Assembly: GCA_030431455.1 (NCBI GenBank)
Contig: JAUIJE010000017.1
Span: 124,001-188,000 of the forward strand
Origin: a bacterium
GTDB taxonomy: Bacteria > Myxococcota > UBA727 > JAUIJE01
DNA: 64,000 nt
Direction of reading: 5' to 3'
The notes under the pieces are model-generated. The model saw only the letters and a program-made list of their open reading frames with translations. It was not told the origin of the DNA and did no database searches. Positions 34,516-44,087 of the stretch are shown one piece after another. Each line of letters opens with the position of its first letter. Position 1 is the stretch's first letter. A program made the translations under genes and the position numbers.

Positions 34516-35424
34516 ATGATGTCACGCCTGCCCTCCGCCTTGTGGTTGCTCCTCGCGCTCGGTCTCGCCGCGTGCCCCGACGAAATGCCCGCCCCGGTCG
34601 ACGCCGGGGATGGTGATGGTGATGGTGATGGTGATGGTGATGGTGATGGTGATGGTGATGGCGACGGGGACGGGGATGGCGACGGGGACGGGGATGGCGA
34701 TGGCGATGGCGACGACGTGAGCTGCGGGGACGACGACCCGCTCACCCAATCCAACTGGGTCGGTTTTTGCGACGACCGGGTCGACGACAACTGCACCATC
34801 GATGCCCCCCTCGACCCCTGCCCGTTCACGGTGTCGGCCCACCAGTATTGCCAAACCGGCGACGAGCCTTGTCCCGCCACCCAGCCGACCTCCGGGCCCC
34901 CGGCGTTCGATTGCACCGGGGCCATTCCCCGCAACGTGATCGCCCACGCCCAGCTCGAGACCCCCAACGATCAAGTGCAGTCGCTTTGTGTGTTCTTTTA
35001 CGAAAGCGACGCGGTGCCCGGCGAGGTGTACGCGGCCTACGTGCACGAGGACGGCGTCGACCCCGCGGGCCCAGACTTCACCTGCGCCACCGACCTCATC
35101 TACCGGCGCTACCTGTTCGTGGCCGACAACGACCCCGCCCCGTGCGACCCGGTCACGGTGCCGTTCCCGTCGTCGGCCGACGACTACAAAATCAGCAACG
35201 CCTGCCGCAAAGCCCTGCGGCCGGTGGCGCAGGACGACCCGCTGTTCAGCCCCGACATCCAATACTTCGCGGCCTCCGTCGACGAGGCCCTGCAAAAACT
35301 CGCCGTGCTCGACACCGCCGAAATCGGCTGTTTGCGCGCGGTCAACCCCGACGGGGCGGAGATTCGGCCGTGGGCGCTGCAGGCTTCCGCCCCCATCGTG
35401 ATCGACGCCGCGCCCCCCGACTGA
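34516..35424 (+). CDS. Lipoprotein with an Asp-Gly repeat linker and a Cys-rich body
   Basis: The 302-residue protein has a clear lipoprotein signal (LWLLLALGLAAC; Cys20), a short Pro-rich neck, then 17 uninterrupted Asp-Gly dipeptides (residues 32-65). The body contains about ten cysteines, for example DDNCTIDAPLDPCPF and AHQYCQTGDEPCPAT, and is probably disulfide-bonded in the periplasm or on the cell surface. The body matches no family I recognise. It occupies the place directly after pilR where pilA lies in Myxococcus, but it has no pilin-type N-terminus. Slippage in the repeat would lengthen or shorten the linker without breaking the frame. Confidence 0.8.
   Translation: MMSRLPSALWLLLALGLAACPDEMPAPVDAGDGDGDGDGDGDGDGDGDGDGDGDGDGDGDGDGDGDDVSCGDDDPLTQSNWVGFCDDRVDDNCTIDAPLDPCPFTVSAHQYCQTGDEPCPATQPTSGPPAFDCTGAIPRNVIAHAQLETPNDQVQSLCVFFYESDAVPGEVYAAYVHEDGVDPAGPDFTCATDLIYRRYLFVADNDPAPCDPVTVPFPSSADDYKISNACRKALRPVAQDDPLFSPDIQYFAASVDEALQKLAVLDTAEIGCLRAVNPDGAEIRPWALQASAPIVIDAAPPD
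34609..34710 (+). repeat. Seventeen-unit GAYGGN hexanucleotide tandem repeat
   Basis: Eight exact GATGGT units are followed by nine GATGGC or GACGGG units, together encoding (Asp-Gly)x17. The eight identical units at the 5' side look recently expanded; the varied units at the 3' side look older. Confidence 0.95.
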
Positions 35425-36573: not shown

Positions 36574-38256
36574 ATGTCTCGTCGTCGCGCGTTGTCGCTC
36601 ACTCTCTGCTGGTGTGCGGTCGGGTGGGCTCTCCCCGCCGCCGCCGACGACGATGCGTCCGACGACGACGACGTGATCATCATCGAGGACGAGGCGTCCA
36701 GCGACGACGACGATGTGATCATCATCGACGACGGCACCGGGACGGGCGACGACGACACCCTGATCATCGAGGGGGACGACGACGAGATCATCATTCTCGA
36801 CGACGAGTCCCCCACCCCCGAGCTGCCCGCGGTGTCGGGGGCGCTCGGCCGGCTGTGGGAAGCGCTGTATGTGTCGGTGGCGGCCGAAGGGCAGTTTTAT
36901 GGCCAGTGGACCGCGATCGAGGATGGGCCGCTGCGGGTGCTCGGCTCGTCGGGGTTCGAGAGCTGGCTGCTCCCCACACAGAACCTCTCGCTCTACGCCC
37001 GGGGCTTCGCCCGGCTCGCCTTCGACGGCGCCCCCGAGAACTTCCGCTTCGTGCCCGTCGTCGACCTCTACGAGAGCTACGCCAAGATCAACGCCGAGGT
37101 CGGCTCGGTGCAGCTCGGCCGCCTGGTCGCGCCCTGGGGCGGCACCCGGGTCGCCGCCCTCGGCGACCGCCTCAACCCCCCCGATCACCGCCGCAGCGTG
37201 ATCACCTTCCCCGACGCGGTGCAGAACCGCCAACCCCAGTGGGGCGCGCTGCTCAAGACCTCCCTCGGCTCGGTGGTGCTCGAGGGCGTGCTGTTCACCC
37301 TGTACGAGCCCACCGAAGGCAGCTTGGCCGCATCCAACCAGGCCGGGGTGCGGGCCGCCCGGTACCAGACCGCGTTGGTGCGCTCGCCGGCCCGGGCCGG
37401 GGGCTTGTTCGCCTACGACACCCGCGAAAATCTCTACCAGAACCTGAGCCTGCTCGACTCGACCACGCTCGCGGTGCGCGCCCGCCGCCGGGTCGGGGAG
37501 TTGAAGATCGGGGGCTCGGCGGTCATCGGCCTCGACGAGGTTCCGACCCTGCAGTTCTCGCCCGCGATGGCCCGCTACCTGGGGGACAGCGCCCTGGGCA
37601 AGCCGGTGGCGGCCCCGCCGTGCAACCCGGGCGACGTGGCCAGCAACGCCGACTGTTTTGGCCGCAACACCCTGCGCCACAACCGCAGCGCGAGCCTGGC
37701 CGCCGACGTGGAGTGGGGCTTCGGGATCGTCACCCTCAAGGCCGAGGCCATGATCAACCCGCGTATGGGGTTTGTGCCCGGCAAGACCGCCTTGGTCATC
37801 GACGACGCCGAGGGGCTCAAGAGCGTGCAGGTCTCGCAATACGGCGGCGCGGTGGCGATGGAGACCGGCTACGGCGAGTGGTTCGAAGGCAGCGTCGAGC
37901 TGTTCGGGCTCGGCTGGGTGGGCGTGCCCACCGGCTCGGTGCTGTGGGGGGTCGAGGCGCTGTCCGGCCCCTTGCCCTACAGCCGCATCATCCCCGGGTT
38001 TGTGCCCCGGGCCGGGCTCGGGGTGTCGGTGGGCGGCTCGGTGTTCGACCAGGCCCTCACGTGGCGGCTGCGGGGCGAGGCCGGCTTGGTCCCGATCGAC
38101 ATCCTGATGAGCGGTGAGGTCCGCTACCAGCTGCCGATCCTGAAGCTGTACGTGGGCACCCGCGGCAACATCTTCGCCGGCTTGCCCGGCAGCCCCGGCT
38201 GGATGCGGCAGGACGCGAGCATGATCGGCCTGTTCATGGGTTGGGGCACGGACTGA
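36574..38256 (+). CDS. Putative outer-membrane beta-barrel protein with acidic DVIII-repeat leader
   Basis: The 560-residue product has a signal peptide (to about residue 24), then an acidic region of about 55 residues. In that region DDDD and hydrophobic triplets alternate: DDDDVIIIEDE, DDDDVIIIDDG, GDDDTLIIEG, DDDEIIILDDE. The remaining 470 residues show amphipathic strands, many aromatic belts and Gly turns, and TonB-independent porin-like features (QLGRLVAPWGGTRVAALGDR, ending in LFMGWGTD). I cannot name a family. The acidic repeats could bind calcium or cations or act as a periplasmic linker. Confidence 0.7.
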   Translation: MSRRRALSLTLCWCAVGWALPAAADDDASDDDDVIIIEDEASSDDDDVIIIDDGTGTGDDDTLIIEGDDDEIIILDDESPTPELPAVSGALGRLWEALYVSVAAEGQFYGQWTAIEDGPLRVLGSSGFESWLLPTQNLSLYARGFARLAFDGAPENFRFVPVVDLYESYAKINAEVGSVQLGRLVAPWGGTRVAALGDRLNPPDHRRSVITFPDAVQNRQPQWGALLKTSLGSVVLEGVLFTLYEPTEGSLAASNQAGVRAARYQTALVRSPARAGGLFAYDTRENLYQNLSLLDSTTLAVRARRRVGELKIGGSAVIGLDEVPTLQFSPAMARYLGDSALGKPVAAPPCNPGDVASNADCFGRNTLRHNRSASLAADVEWGFGIVTLKAEAMINPRMGFVPGKTALVIDDAEGLKSVQVSQYGGAVAMETGYGEWFEGSVELFGLGWVGVPTGSVLWGVEALSGPLPYSRIIPGFVPRAGLGVSVGGSVFDQALTWRLRGEAGLVPIDILMSGEVRYQLPILKLYVGTRGNIFAGLPGSPGWMRQDASMIGLFMGWGTD

Positions 38257-39159: not shown

Positions 39160-39867
39160 ATGGGTGACCTACTCGCACAGACGCGGGCGCGCATCAAAGC
39201 GTCCAAAGACCAGGGCCAGACCCCGGTCGTGATCTTCGACCTCGACGGCACGGTCTACGACAACAGCCCGCGCACGTGGAACATCCTCGCGCGCTTCGCC
39301 GACGAGCACGGCCGCGACGACCTCCGCCGGGCGATGGTGGACCTGCCCCCGACGCGGTTGCCCTACCTGCTGGGGGACACCCTCAAGAGCATCGGCTTTG
39401 ACGACGAGGAGCTGACCAAAGCGGCGGTCGGCTACTGGAAAGACCGGTTCTTCACCGACGACATCCAGGCCCACGACGTCGCCCTCCCGGGGGCGGTGGC
39501 GTTCGTCAACCGCTGCTACGACGACGGGGCCACCGTGGTCTACCTCACCGGCCGAGACGTGCCCGGCATGGGCGTCGGGTGCTTTCACTCCCTGCGGTCC
39601 CACAACCTCCCCGTGGGGTTGGTGCGCACCACCATGGTGCTCAAGCACGACTTCGAGACCACCGACCTCGATTTCAAAACCGAGGCGGTCGAGTACATCG
39701 ATTCCCTCGGCCACGTGGTCGCCTCGTTCGACAATGAGCCCGGCAACTGCAACCTCTTCTTGAACCGCTGGCCGGACGCGCTCATCGCTCTGTGCGACAC
39801 CCAACACGCCCCCGGCGCGCCCGAGCTCGCCGACGGCGTGATTCGCTTCTTCGACTTTTTGGCCTGA
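39160..39867 (+). CDS. HAD-superfamily hydrolase
   Basis: The 235-residue protein has HAD motif I VVIFDLDGTVYDN (nucleophile Asp and acid/base Asp two residues later) near residue 24, motif II VVYLTGRD near residue 127, and a later acidic SFDNEPGNC that fits motif IV. The cap region is small and helical. It is probably a cytoplasmic phosphatase. The transporter gene begins 5 bp downstream, and that transporter resembles organophosphate carriers, so a phosphate-ester substrate is a reasonable guess. Confidence 0.85.
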   Translation: MGDLLAQTRARIKASKDQGQTPVVIFDLDGTVYDNSPRTWNILARFADEHGRDDLRRAMVDLPPTRLPYLLGDTLKSIGFDDEELTKAAVGYWKDRFFTDDIQAHDVALPGAVAFVNRCYDDGATVVYLTGRDVPGMGVGCFHSLRSHNLPVGLVRTTMVLKHDFETTDLDFKTEAVEYIDSLGHVVASFDNEPGNCNLFLNRWPDALIALCDTQHAPGAPELADGVIRFFDFLA

Positions 39868-39872
39868 CCGCC

Positions 39873-41771
39873 GTGGCCCCCGTCGAGCACTCCCCCGCGT
39901 TCCGCCGCCGCCGGTTCCTCAACTGGTTTCCGCTCGGGCTCGCCTACGCCCTGCTCTACATGGGCCGCTACAACCTGACCGTGGCCAAGACCTCCCTCGG
40001 CGATCTCATGACCAAGGAGGACTTCGGGGTCATCTTCGCCGCCGGCACCACGGTCTATGCATTTGCATTTTTGTTCAACGGCCCGCTGGTGGATCGCATC
40101 GGGGGGCGCAAAGGCATGCTCACCGCCCTGCTCGGCAGCGGCTTGGCCAACGCGGCCATGGGGGTCTACATCTCGTCCGCCCTCGACCAGGGCCCCGGGG
40201 CCGAGCTCAGGTTGCCGTTGGCGTTGATGTACGCGGTGAACATGTACTTCCAGAGCTTCGCCGCGGTGAGCATCGTCAAGGTCAACGCCCACTGGTTCCA
40301 CGTGCGGGAGCGCGGCGGCTTCTCGGGCATCTTCGGGACCATGATCTCGAGCGGGATCTTCTTCGCCTTCACCGGCAACGGGCTCATCCTCGACGTGGCC
40401 CAGCTGTTCTACCCCGGCCAACGGGTGACGTGGTTGGTGTTCGCCGCGCCGTCCGCGTTGCTGTTCACGATTTTGGTGGTCGAGTTCTTCCTCCTCCGCG
40501 ACCGGCCCGGGCTCGCCGGGCACGAGGACTTCGACACCGGCGACGCCTCCAGCGGCGAGGACGACGCCCCCGCCCCCACCGGCCAGATCCTCAAGAAGAT
40601 CCTCACCAACCCCATCATCCTCACCGTGGCCGGGGTCGAGTTCTGCACCGGGGTGTTGCGCAACGGGGTCATGCACTGGTTCCCGATCTACGCCAAAGAG
40701 GTCTGGACCCTCCCCGGCGACCACTCGCTCGTGTACGGCCCGATCAAAGCCGTGACCCTCGCCCCCCTGTCGTGGGTGTTGTGCGACGCGCCCGGCACCG
40801 GCCCCTACGCCGACACATTGTGCAAAGCCGCGGTCAGCGACAGCACCGAGAACATCGTCGCCACCCTCGCGCTGTGTTTCTTGTCCGCCGCGGTGATCGG
40901 GTTTTTCTCCCGCCGGTTCGTGGGCCGGGCCCGCGGGGTGATGATCGTGGTCGCGGCGCTGTTGTTCGTCGGCCCCTTCTTTCCCCTCGGCTGGGGCGGG
41001 CTGTTGTTCGTGGCCGGCGTGGTCGGGGGCAACGTCGCCGGCTGGGTGTCCGACCTGTTCTTCCAGTCGCGGCGCGCCCCCGCCGCCGGCGGCCTGTACG
41101 CGATCTTGGCGCTGTGCACCATTGCGATGCTGTTCACCCTCGGCCAACCCGCGGCGGTGGTGGCCGAGGCCGGCCCCGCGACCCAGCTGCTGCCCGGCGA
41201 CAAGGTGCTCCGCGTCGACGAGCAGCCCACCGAGACCTGGGCCGACGTCGCCGACGCGGTGCGCTGCCATGTGCCCGCCTGCGTCGAAGCCCGGTGGAAC
41301 CCCAAAAGCTGCGTGTGCGAGTCCGGCAGCACCAGCCCCGCCACCACCTCGTCGCCGCTGTCGATCGTCGTGGAGCGCGACGGGCAACCGCTCACGCTCA
41401 CCGTCGACGACCCCAAGGCCAGCCAACGCGCGGGCGACAAGCGCAAGCTCCAAGCCCGGCCCGAGCTCCCCTTGTCCCCCTGGTGGCTCGGGGTGGTCAT
41501 CTTCCTCATGAGCCTGTGCGTGATCGGCACCCACGGCCTGCTCTCCGGCACCGCGACCATGGACTTCGGCGGCCGCAAGGGCGCGGCCACCGCGGTCGGC
41601 ATCATCGACGGCTTTGTGTACCTGGGCACCGCGGTGCAGTCGCTGTCCCTCGGCGCGCTCACCGGCCTGTCGTGGGCCTACTGGCCGGTGTTCTTGCTGC
41701 CGTTTTCGGTGATCGGCTTCGTGCTCCTGCTGCGCATCTGGAACGCCAAAGCGGGCCAAGGCGGGCACTAG
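39873..41771 (+). CDS. MFS transporter (organophosphate antiporter-like) with an embedded PDZ-like domain
   Basis: The 632-residue protein starts at GTG 39873, right after the HAD gene. The first part (about 10-200) is an MFS half with YALLYMGRYNLTVAK, GPLVDRIGGRKGMLTALL and HWFHVRERGGFSGIFG, the arrangement seen in GlpT/UhpT/UhpC and phosphoglycerate carriers. After further helices, residues about 430-530 form a soluble insert starting ATQLLPGDKVLRVDEQPT and running to PLSIVVERDGQPLTLTVDD. This is the pattern of a PDZ domain but carries an extra four-Cys excursion. Two or three helices then close the protein. The MFS family has no PDZ domain normally, so this fusion is unusual. Confidence 0.85.
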   Translation: MAPVEHSPAFRRRRFLNWFPLGLAYALLYMGRYNLTVAKTSLGDLMTKEDFGVIFAAGTTVYAFAFLFNGPLVDRIGGRKGMLTALLGSGLANAAMGVYISSALDQGPGAELRLPLALMYAVNMYFQSFAAVSIVKVNAHWFHVRERGGFSGIFGTMISSGIFFAFTGNGLILDVAQLFYPGQRVTWLVFAAPSALLFTILVVEFFLLRDRPGLAGHEDFDTGDASSGEDDAPAPTGQILKKILTNPIILTVAGVEFCTGVLRNGVMHWFPIYAKEVWTLPGDHSLVYGPIKAVTLAPLSWVLCDAPGTGPYADTLCKAAVSDSTENIVATLALCFLSAAVIGFFSRRFVGRARGVMIVVAALLFVGPFFPLGWGGLLFVAGVVGGNVAGWVSDLFFQSRRAPAAGGLYAILALCTIAMLFTLGQPAAVVAEAGPATQLLPGDKVLRVDEQPTETWADVADAVRCHVPACVEARWNPKSCVCESGSTSPATTSSPLSIVVERDGQPLTLTVDDPKASQRAGDKRKLQARPELPLSPWWLGVVIFLMSLCVIGTHGLLSGTATMDFGGRKGAATAVGIIDGFVYLGTAVQSLSLGALTGLSWAYWPVFLLPFSVIGFVLLLRIWNAKAGQGGH

Positions 41772-42932: not shown

Positions 42933-44087
42933 TCACAGCCCGGCCAACAACCCCGCGTCGCGCTCGAGCTCGGCTTTGCGTGAGGCGCGGGCTTGCTCGT
43001 CGTCAAACACCAGCGGCTCGAAGTCGGACAGCGCGGCCAACCACACCCGCTCCGCCGCGGCCTTGTCGAGCAGCCCGGCCCGGACCGCCTCCGCCGCCGC
43101 CCCCACGTAGGTGTCAAACAGGTGCACCCCCTGGGCGCGAAAGTGAGCCCGGACCTGCTCGTCCTTGCCCACCACGTCGTGGATAAACACCGCCCGCACC
43201 CGGGCGCAGGCCGCGCGCATCTCCACCCCAAAGTCCGCGTCGCCCTGCCCGCTGTCCCCAAAAAACACAAACTCGTACTCCGGGAACAGCTGGTCGTACT
43301 CCGCGAAGTTGGCGAGCTTCTTCTTCGCGATGCTGGCGCTGCTGTGCAGGTGGCGAAACGAACCCGACAGCACCACCGGCTGCTTGACCCCCAGCGCCCG
43401 CAGCGTCTTGTGGGTGGCCTTTTCGATCACCCCGGTGCGGTCTTTGGGCCGGGCGGTCACAAACGAGACGCGCCCCTCGGCGTCGAACTCCTGATAGAGC
43501 GCCAGCACGCCGGGATACACCGTCTTTTTCGGGTACCTCACGTCCTTCCAGTTGGCGTACAGGGTGTCGTCAATGTCGCTGAGGATCTTGAGCCCGGCCG
43601 CGACCTGACCCTCCGCCGCAAAATGTTGCAGGATCGCGTCCTTGACCTCCCCGTCGTCAATGTCACTGAACACAATGTGCTGCAGGTCGCGGTGGTCGTC
43701 GCCCAGGTCGAGCAGGTCCTTGAGCGCGGTGAGGTCTGGCCCTCTGGTCCCCAGGAACAGGTCGCGGATGCCGCGCTCGTCGAGCGCGTCGGTGCGCCCG
43801 GTGGACAGCGCCAGGATCAAAGCCGCCCGCGCCGGCACGTCGAGGTCCGCGAGGCGCGGCCCGGTGAGCAGGTCGACCAACGCGGTGCGGTTGTCGGGAC
43901 CGAGCATGCGGTCGTCGACATCGGCGATCAGCCACACCAGGTCGAGGCGCAGGAGCAGCGCGGACAGGTCCGGGCTGTGCGTCAACAGGTCGAGGATGAT
44001 GCGCTCGTCCTTGCGGTCGGTGTGTCCGCGCAGCAAGTCGTTGATTTGGGCCACGTCCCGTTCGACGGCGTCATGGGTCTCGGTCAT
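42933..44087 (-). CDS. App1-type phosphatidate phosphatase (DUF2183/PF09949-like)
   Basis: The C-terminal half of this 384-residue protein contains the HAD-like motif ILSDIDDTLYANW, followed by TVYPGVLALYQEF, VSFVTARPKDRTG, LSGSFRHLHSSASIAKKK and FVFFGDSGQGD. This is the order found in the catalytic domain of yeast App1, a Mg-dependent phosphatidate phosphatase. The N-terminal half (about residues 1-160) is helical, Asp- and Leu-rich, and has no match I recognise. No signal or membrane helix is seen, so it is probably cytoplasmic. Conversion of phosphatidic acid to diacylglycerol is the family role. Confidence 0.88.
   Translation of the reverse strand: MTETHDAVERDVAQINDLLRGHTDRKDERIILDLLTHSPDLSALLLRLDLVWLIADVDDRMLGPDNRTALVDLLTGPRLADLDVPARAALILALSTGRTDALDERGIRDLFLGTRGPDLTALKDLLDLGDDHRDLQHIVFSDIDDGEVKDAILQHFAAEGQVAAGLKILSDIDDTLYANWKDVRYPKKTVYPGVLALYQEFDAEGRVSFVTARPKDRTGVIEKATHKTLRALGVKQPVVLSGSFRHLHSSASIAKKKLANFAEYDQLFPEYEFVFFGDSGQGDADFGVEMRAACARVRAVFIHDVVGKDEQVRAHFRAQGVHLFDTYVGAAAEAVRAGLLDKAAAERVWLAALSDFEPLVFDDEQARASRKAELERDAGLLAGL

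Follow-up and report, generated by a model that had tools for sequence, protein, structure and literature searches.

In OPA carriers (GlpT, UhpT, SLC37A2, and SLC37A4/G6PT), the MFS fold is built from 12 helices and carries no soluble domain. In GlpT, R45, R269, and K80 are substrate-site residues, with R45 in TM1 and R269 in TM7 being the phosphate-binding arginines. UhpC, an OPA homologue and thus itself a carrier homologue, is a receptor that acts with its partners UhpB/UhpA, and has neither a PDZ domain nor extra helices. Elsewhere in the MFS, the 14-helix DHA2 proteins, such as Rv1410/MHAS2168, have extra helices between TM6 and TM7, as well as periplasmic elements beyond the 12-helix fold that include a small TM9-TM10 hairpin (PMC10576003). 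For PDZ domains, a survey of microbial PDZ proteins assigned a protease partner to 88% of the classified proteins, and its text makes no mention of MFS proteins or transporters (PMC6411480).

Here we describe a carrier gene, with its neighbors, in a stretch of 64,000 nucleotides (hereafter the window, i.e., the whole stretch of DNA that was analysed). The encoded protein contains two inserts, here referred to as insert A (an extra pair of helices) and insert B (a predicted PDZ domain), and the positions of these and other features are listed in Table 1. It resembles the OPA carriers in its MFS fold and its two phosphate-site arginines, but differs from them in helix number, in the soluble domain, and in the replacement of the residue equivalent to GlpT K80. 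Similar to the DHA2 proteins, it has two extra helices and periplasmic elements outside the 12-helix fold; however, the extra pair follows TM7 and precedes TM8, and a complete domain is accommodated in the TM9-TM10 loop. The closest PDZ domains are those of RseP and other site-2 proteases, which are likewise inserted into a membrane protein at a periplasmic loop, whereas the window protein contains one PDZ domain, with an added Cys-rich hairpin, in a carrier rather than a protease. No MFS protein with a PDZ domain was described in the literature searched, which takes in a minority of subscription journals. The combination is rare, mainly myxobacterial, and apparently undescribed, and it is the combination that is new, as the carrier fold and the PDZ domain are each already known.

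Table 1. Positions in the window of the carrier gene, its parts, and the adjoining hydrolase gene.
Feature	Position	Strand	Remarks
HAD-type hydrolase	39160..39867	+	ends 5 bases upstream of the carrier, same strand
OPA/SLC37/GlpT-type MFS carrier bearing two inserts	39873..41771	+	GTG start, 632 aa
N-terminal MFS bundle TM1-TM6, residues 8-207	39894..40493	+	R32 codon at 39966-39968
TM7 region, residues 247-278	40611..40706	+	R263 codon at 40659-40661
Insert A, residues about 283-370	40719..40982	+	periplasmic segment, then two extra TM helices (predicted)
TM8-TM9, residues 373-422	40989..41138	+	MFS loop motif GNVAGWVSDLFFQSRRAP
Insert B, residues 425-535, predicted RseP-type PDZ in the TM9-TM10 loop	41145..41477	+	profile and fold
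Cys cluster C465, C470, C480, C482	41265..41318	+	CX4CX9CXC in the window protein
TM10-TM12, residues 536-621	41478..41735	+	alignment and model

The Carrier and its Putative Substrate Site

The 39873-41771 (+) frame is free of stops over its 632 codons, and its product shares 57% identity with a homologue in another genome over nearly the full length. The initial annotation took the protein for an MFS member of the organophosphate-carrier type, and this is borne out both by Pfam (PF07690, MFS_1, E 1.1e-21) and by a full-length AlphaFold model (pLDDT 91.8, pTM 0.91, 14 helices), whose best fold matches are SLC37A2, GlpT (1pw4), and SLC37A4/G6PT. The nearest NCBIfam models are PgtP, GlpT, and UhpC, all with scores far under their cut-offs; the curated OPA model TIGR00881 is not reached (91 bits vs. 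a cut-off of 408), nor is the curated glpT model (60 vs. 633). As these curated models describe specific members and score low, the window protein can be placed no closer to the family than as a distant, OPA-like branch. A second, distant OPA-like carrier is encoded in the same genome (G000:C28:246645-247421, 30% identity).

Based on the GlpT profile alignment, GlpT R45 and R269 correspond to R32 and R263 of the window protein. Among the matches listed, neither arginine is substituted in any of the 87 sequences counted, whether they contain inserts or not (R263 is seen in all 87, and R32 falls in a gap in one incomplete sequence). At the site equivalent to GlpT K80, F66 is found in all sequences counted among these matches, and the substrate is therefore probably not glycerol-3-phosphate. 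The window protein therefore likely transports phosphorylated or similar anions, and its substrate probably differs from that of GlpT.

Neighboring Genes

The HAD-type hydrolase encoded immediately upstream has no evident signal peptide and shows weak similarity to class-B acid phosphatases. Among the matches listed, an HAD homologue adjoins the carrier in seven loci including the window, and a P-loop kinase-like gene is located beside or near the carrier in 12 loci from several phyla (for example, L098 2940-3716, L062 7813-8811, and L104 5223-6005); this kinase-like family has no Pfam match. Both types of neighbors are independent of the PDZ domain, being found whether or not a lineage has it, and they suggest handling of a phosphorylated metabolite. 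Neighboring genes otherwise vary between lineages. The P-loop kinase-like protein was considered as a constant partner and rejected, being absent from the window's genome and having only weak homologues in several of the 12 genomes checked. A cupin/mannose-phosphate-isomerase-like gene near eight loci was also set aside, given that its distance is variable and its presence may reflect mere synteny.

Other genes in the window include one with an APP1-type phosphatidate phosphatase catalytic domain (42933-44087, - strand), 1.2 kb downstream of the carrier on the opposite strand, and one (34516-35424, + strand) encoding a probable signal sequence followed by a long Gly-Asp dipeptide tract (about 19 GD units), with no more than a weak Pfam match to the tract region. 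A third (36574-38256, + strand) encodes an exported protein of 560 residues whose start is marked by acidic DDDDVIII repeats and which has no Pfam match.

The Extra Helix Pair and Membrane Topology

Between TM7 and TM8, the alignment shows about 60-95 residues at the insert A site vs. 11-17 in insert-free relatives. This second insert was missed in the initial annotation. In the predicted model, it forms helices at residues 323-348 and 351-369, bringing the total to 14 TM helices. The turn between them, SRRFVGRARG, is positively charged, with a net charge of at least +3 in all 42 insert A sequences among the matches listed. Under the positive-inside rule, this turn is cytoplasmic, which puts the start of TM8 and the end of TM9 on the periplasmic side, and hence the PDZ domain outside. 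Both sequence and model locate insert B to the TM9-TM10 loop on the periplasmic side.

In the window protein, the periplasmic loop of insert A is longer and contains two Cys (about 40770-40880); among the aligned sequences inspected, the nearest relative of the protein, L069, shares this feature, also with two Cys.

A Predicted RseP-type PDZ Domain

The insert B site in the TM9-TM10 loop spans about 110-130 residues in the alignment vs. 2-7 in relatives without the insert. In single-sequence Pfam searches, residues ~429-471 matched PDZ_6 and PDZ_2 (E ~0.001-0.002, under the curated cut-offs). When the 39 inserts among the matches listed were scanned singly, PDZ_6 was found in 22 and PDZ in 19, with weak E-values. 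Searches of Pfam and PDB with one sequence at a time fell short of proof of a PDZ domain, and the family profile and the structural model decided the matter. A profile of the 39 inserts searched against PDB matched the PDZ tandem of the site-2 protease (S2P/RseP) of A. aeolicus at 5e-10, and the PDZ of E. coli RseP at 0.0016. Modeled alone by AlphaFold (pLDDT 90, pTM 0.82), insert B had as its best Foldseek match RseP PDZ2 (3id3; E 1.5e-4, probability 1.00, TM-score 0.71 on the target), and the model matches the RseP PDZ2/PDZ-C fold. By profile and predicted fold, insert B is a PDZ domain of the RseP type. The PDZ-like insert originally proposed at residues ~430-530 is therefore upheld by both profile search and modeling, with its limits now at 425-535.

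Relative to this fold, alignment and model show an extra Cys-rich hairpin, which follows the groove helix WADVADAV and precedes the strand LSIVVERDGQ, and the poor single-sequence score is explained by this interruption of the domain. Ahead of TM10 is a nearly invariant tail, AGDxR...P, which forms a short strand in the predicted model. Among the matches listed, seven positions of the PDZ insert are invariant, and none of the 39 copies is decayed.

The four Cys noted earlier as lying in about 25 residues are C465, C470, C480, and C482, within 18 residues, and the C470-C480 spacing is greater in some relatives. All four are present in 37 of the 39 inserts among the matches listed. L083, which comes from a sheep-colon assembly, and L089 jointly lack the first and third Cys, which suggests C465-C480 and C470-C482 as predicted disulphide pairs; these two sequences are closely related and represent one evolutionary event. 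The joint loss also favors putative disulphides rather than a metal site for the four Cys.

Distribution and Evolutionary History

A fragment of the query protein has a match in 135 of the 195 genomes of the phylum, mostly in insert-free relatives, while the insert is present in seven genomes from five genera. A profile of the insert only recovered the identical seven genomes, with one copy each, all within the same carrier genes. The insert is thus not a common loop of this MFS subfamily.

A species-level genome collection scanned with an alignment of insert-bearing proteins yielded at least 80 loci. Of these loci, at least 38 have the PDZ insert, and, leaving the window aside, no fewer than 38 species-level genomes have both inserts, mostly Myxococcota. 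Among the matches listed, the record titles of the insert-bearers are mainly Polyangiaceae, Sandaracinaceae, and unclassified Myxococcales, with a few others or unassigned, and taxon names on such assemblies are not fully reliable. Where both sites are readable, these matches fall into three classes: neither insert, insert A only, and both A and B. Most relatives are without either insert. Five proteins contain insert A only (L097, L098, L100, L102, and L107), and in their records the phylum is given as Acidobacteriota or Planctomycetota or is missing, and in no case is it Myxococcota. No convincing protein with insert B and without insert A was found among the matches listed; L028, a candidate for a PDZ domain without the helix pair, is a long-branch sequence with an unrelated Ala-rich stretch.

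A tree was built on the shared core, with the insert columns excluded. Among the matches listed, a single branch (100/96) separates the 42 insert A proteins from all others, which supports a single origin of the helix pair. The A-only proteins nest at two places, one being an Acidobacteriota-like group beside L084 and the other a Planctomycetota pair, and the PDZ-bearers as one clade are rejected (AU p=0.00025). It is implausible that the same Cys-bearing domain was gained three times at a single site, so the best reading of the PDZ history is probably one gain followed by at least two losses. The absence of the PDZ domain in the A-only lineages, few as they are (five records), fits loss where a partner is missing. 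Among the PDZ-bearers in the matches listed, identity is 67% in the core, 41% in insert A, and 38% in the PDZ domain.

Possible Functions of the PDZ-bearing Carrier

We consider the window protein to be an MFS exchanger of the organophosphate:phosphate type whose C-terminal half has grown by the two inserts, with a 14-helix layout and a periplasmic PDZ domain that serves for docking, a reading to which we give about an even chance of being correct. The carrier would exchange a phosphorylated metabolite or a similar anion, which may then be processed by the product of a neighboring gene, a cytoplasmic HAD phosphatase or a P-loop kinase. The PDZ domain, for which the fold makes a role in protein binding plausible, would dock a periplasmic or envelope protein near the mouth of the carrier, and the two putative disulphides (C465-C480 and C470-C482) may hold the domain.

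Instead of docking a partner, the PDZ domain, together with the extra helices, may act as an intramolecular lid or gate, its groove binding the protein's own linker and restricting the periplasmic opening. In RseP, a PDZ pair is considered to filter what reaches the active site, and the RseP PDZ, itself inserted into a membrane protein, is the closest relative by both profile and fold. In addition, the near-invariance of the tail before TM10, with its short strand in the model, would suit a gate, and the pTM of the whole model suggests a fixed position of the PDZ domain. However, the domain changes more rapidly than the core does and was apparently lost in lineages that kept the carrier, and for these reasons docking is preferred over gating, which we regard as unlikely but worth serious consideration.

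That the insert is a functionless decoration which drifted in and was tolerated would agree with its lower identity than the core and its apparent losses, at least two in number, but is improbable in view of the invariant positions, the four near-invariant Cys, and the lack of decayed copies among the matches listed. Least probable, by a little, is the UhpC-like receptor raised in the initial annotation, in which the carrier would bind a ligand and the PDZ domain relay the signal to a partner: UhpC is among the OPA relatives and PDZ is a protein-binding fold, but the window protein scores 55 bits against the UhpC model NF008661 (cut-off 564), neither UhpB/UhpA-like genes nor any histidine kinase/response regulator pair are conserved beside the carrier across the loci compared, and the NtrC-type regulator in the window is 5 kb away with other genes between. 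The invariance of both arginines, which also speaks for a carrier, is still compatible with sensing, as UhpC is itself a carrier homologue.

The protein represents a PDZ domain built into a secondary carrier, while bacterial PDZ domains are otherwise known mostly from proteases, and its helix pair sits at an unusual place for the MFS. The natural series of carriers with neither insert, with the helices only, and with the helices plus the PDZ domain, at about 60% identity, makes the effect of each insert on transport testable. For the Myxococcota, we tentatively propose, at somewhat less than even confidence, a sugar-phosphate carrier under the control of an envelope protein, i.e., a metabolite exchanger that would dock a partner or be gated via its periplasmic PDZ domain, a domain that may have been lost in Acidobacteriota, Planctomycetota, and others, possibly because the partner is absent there.
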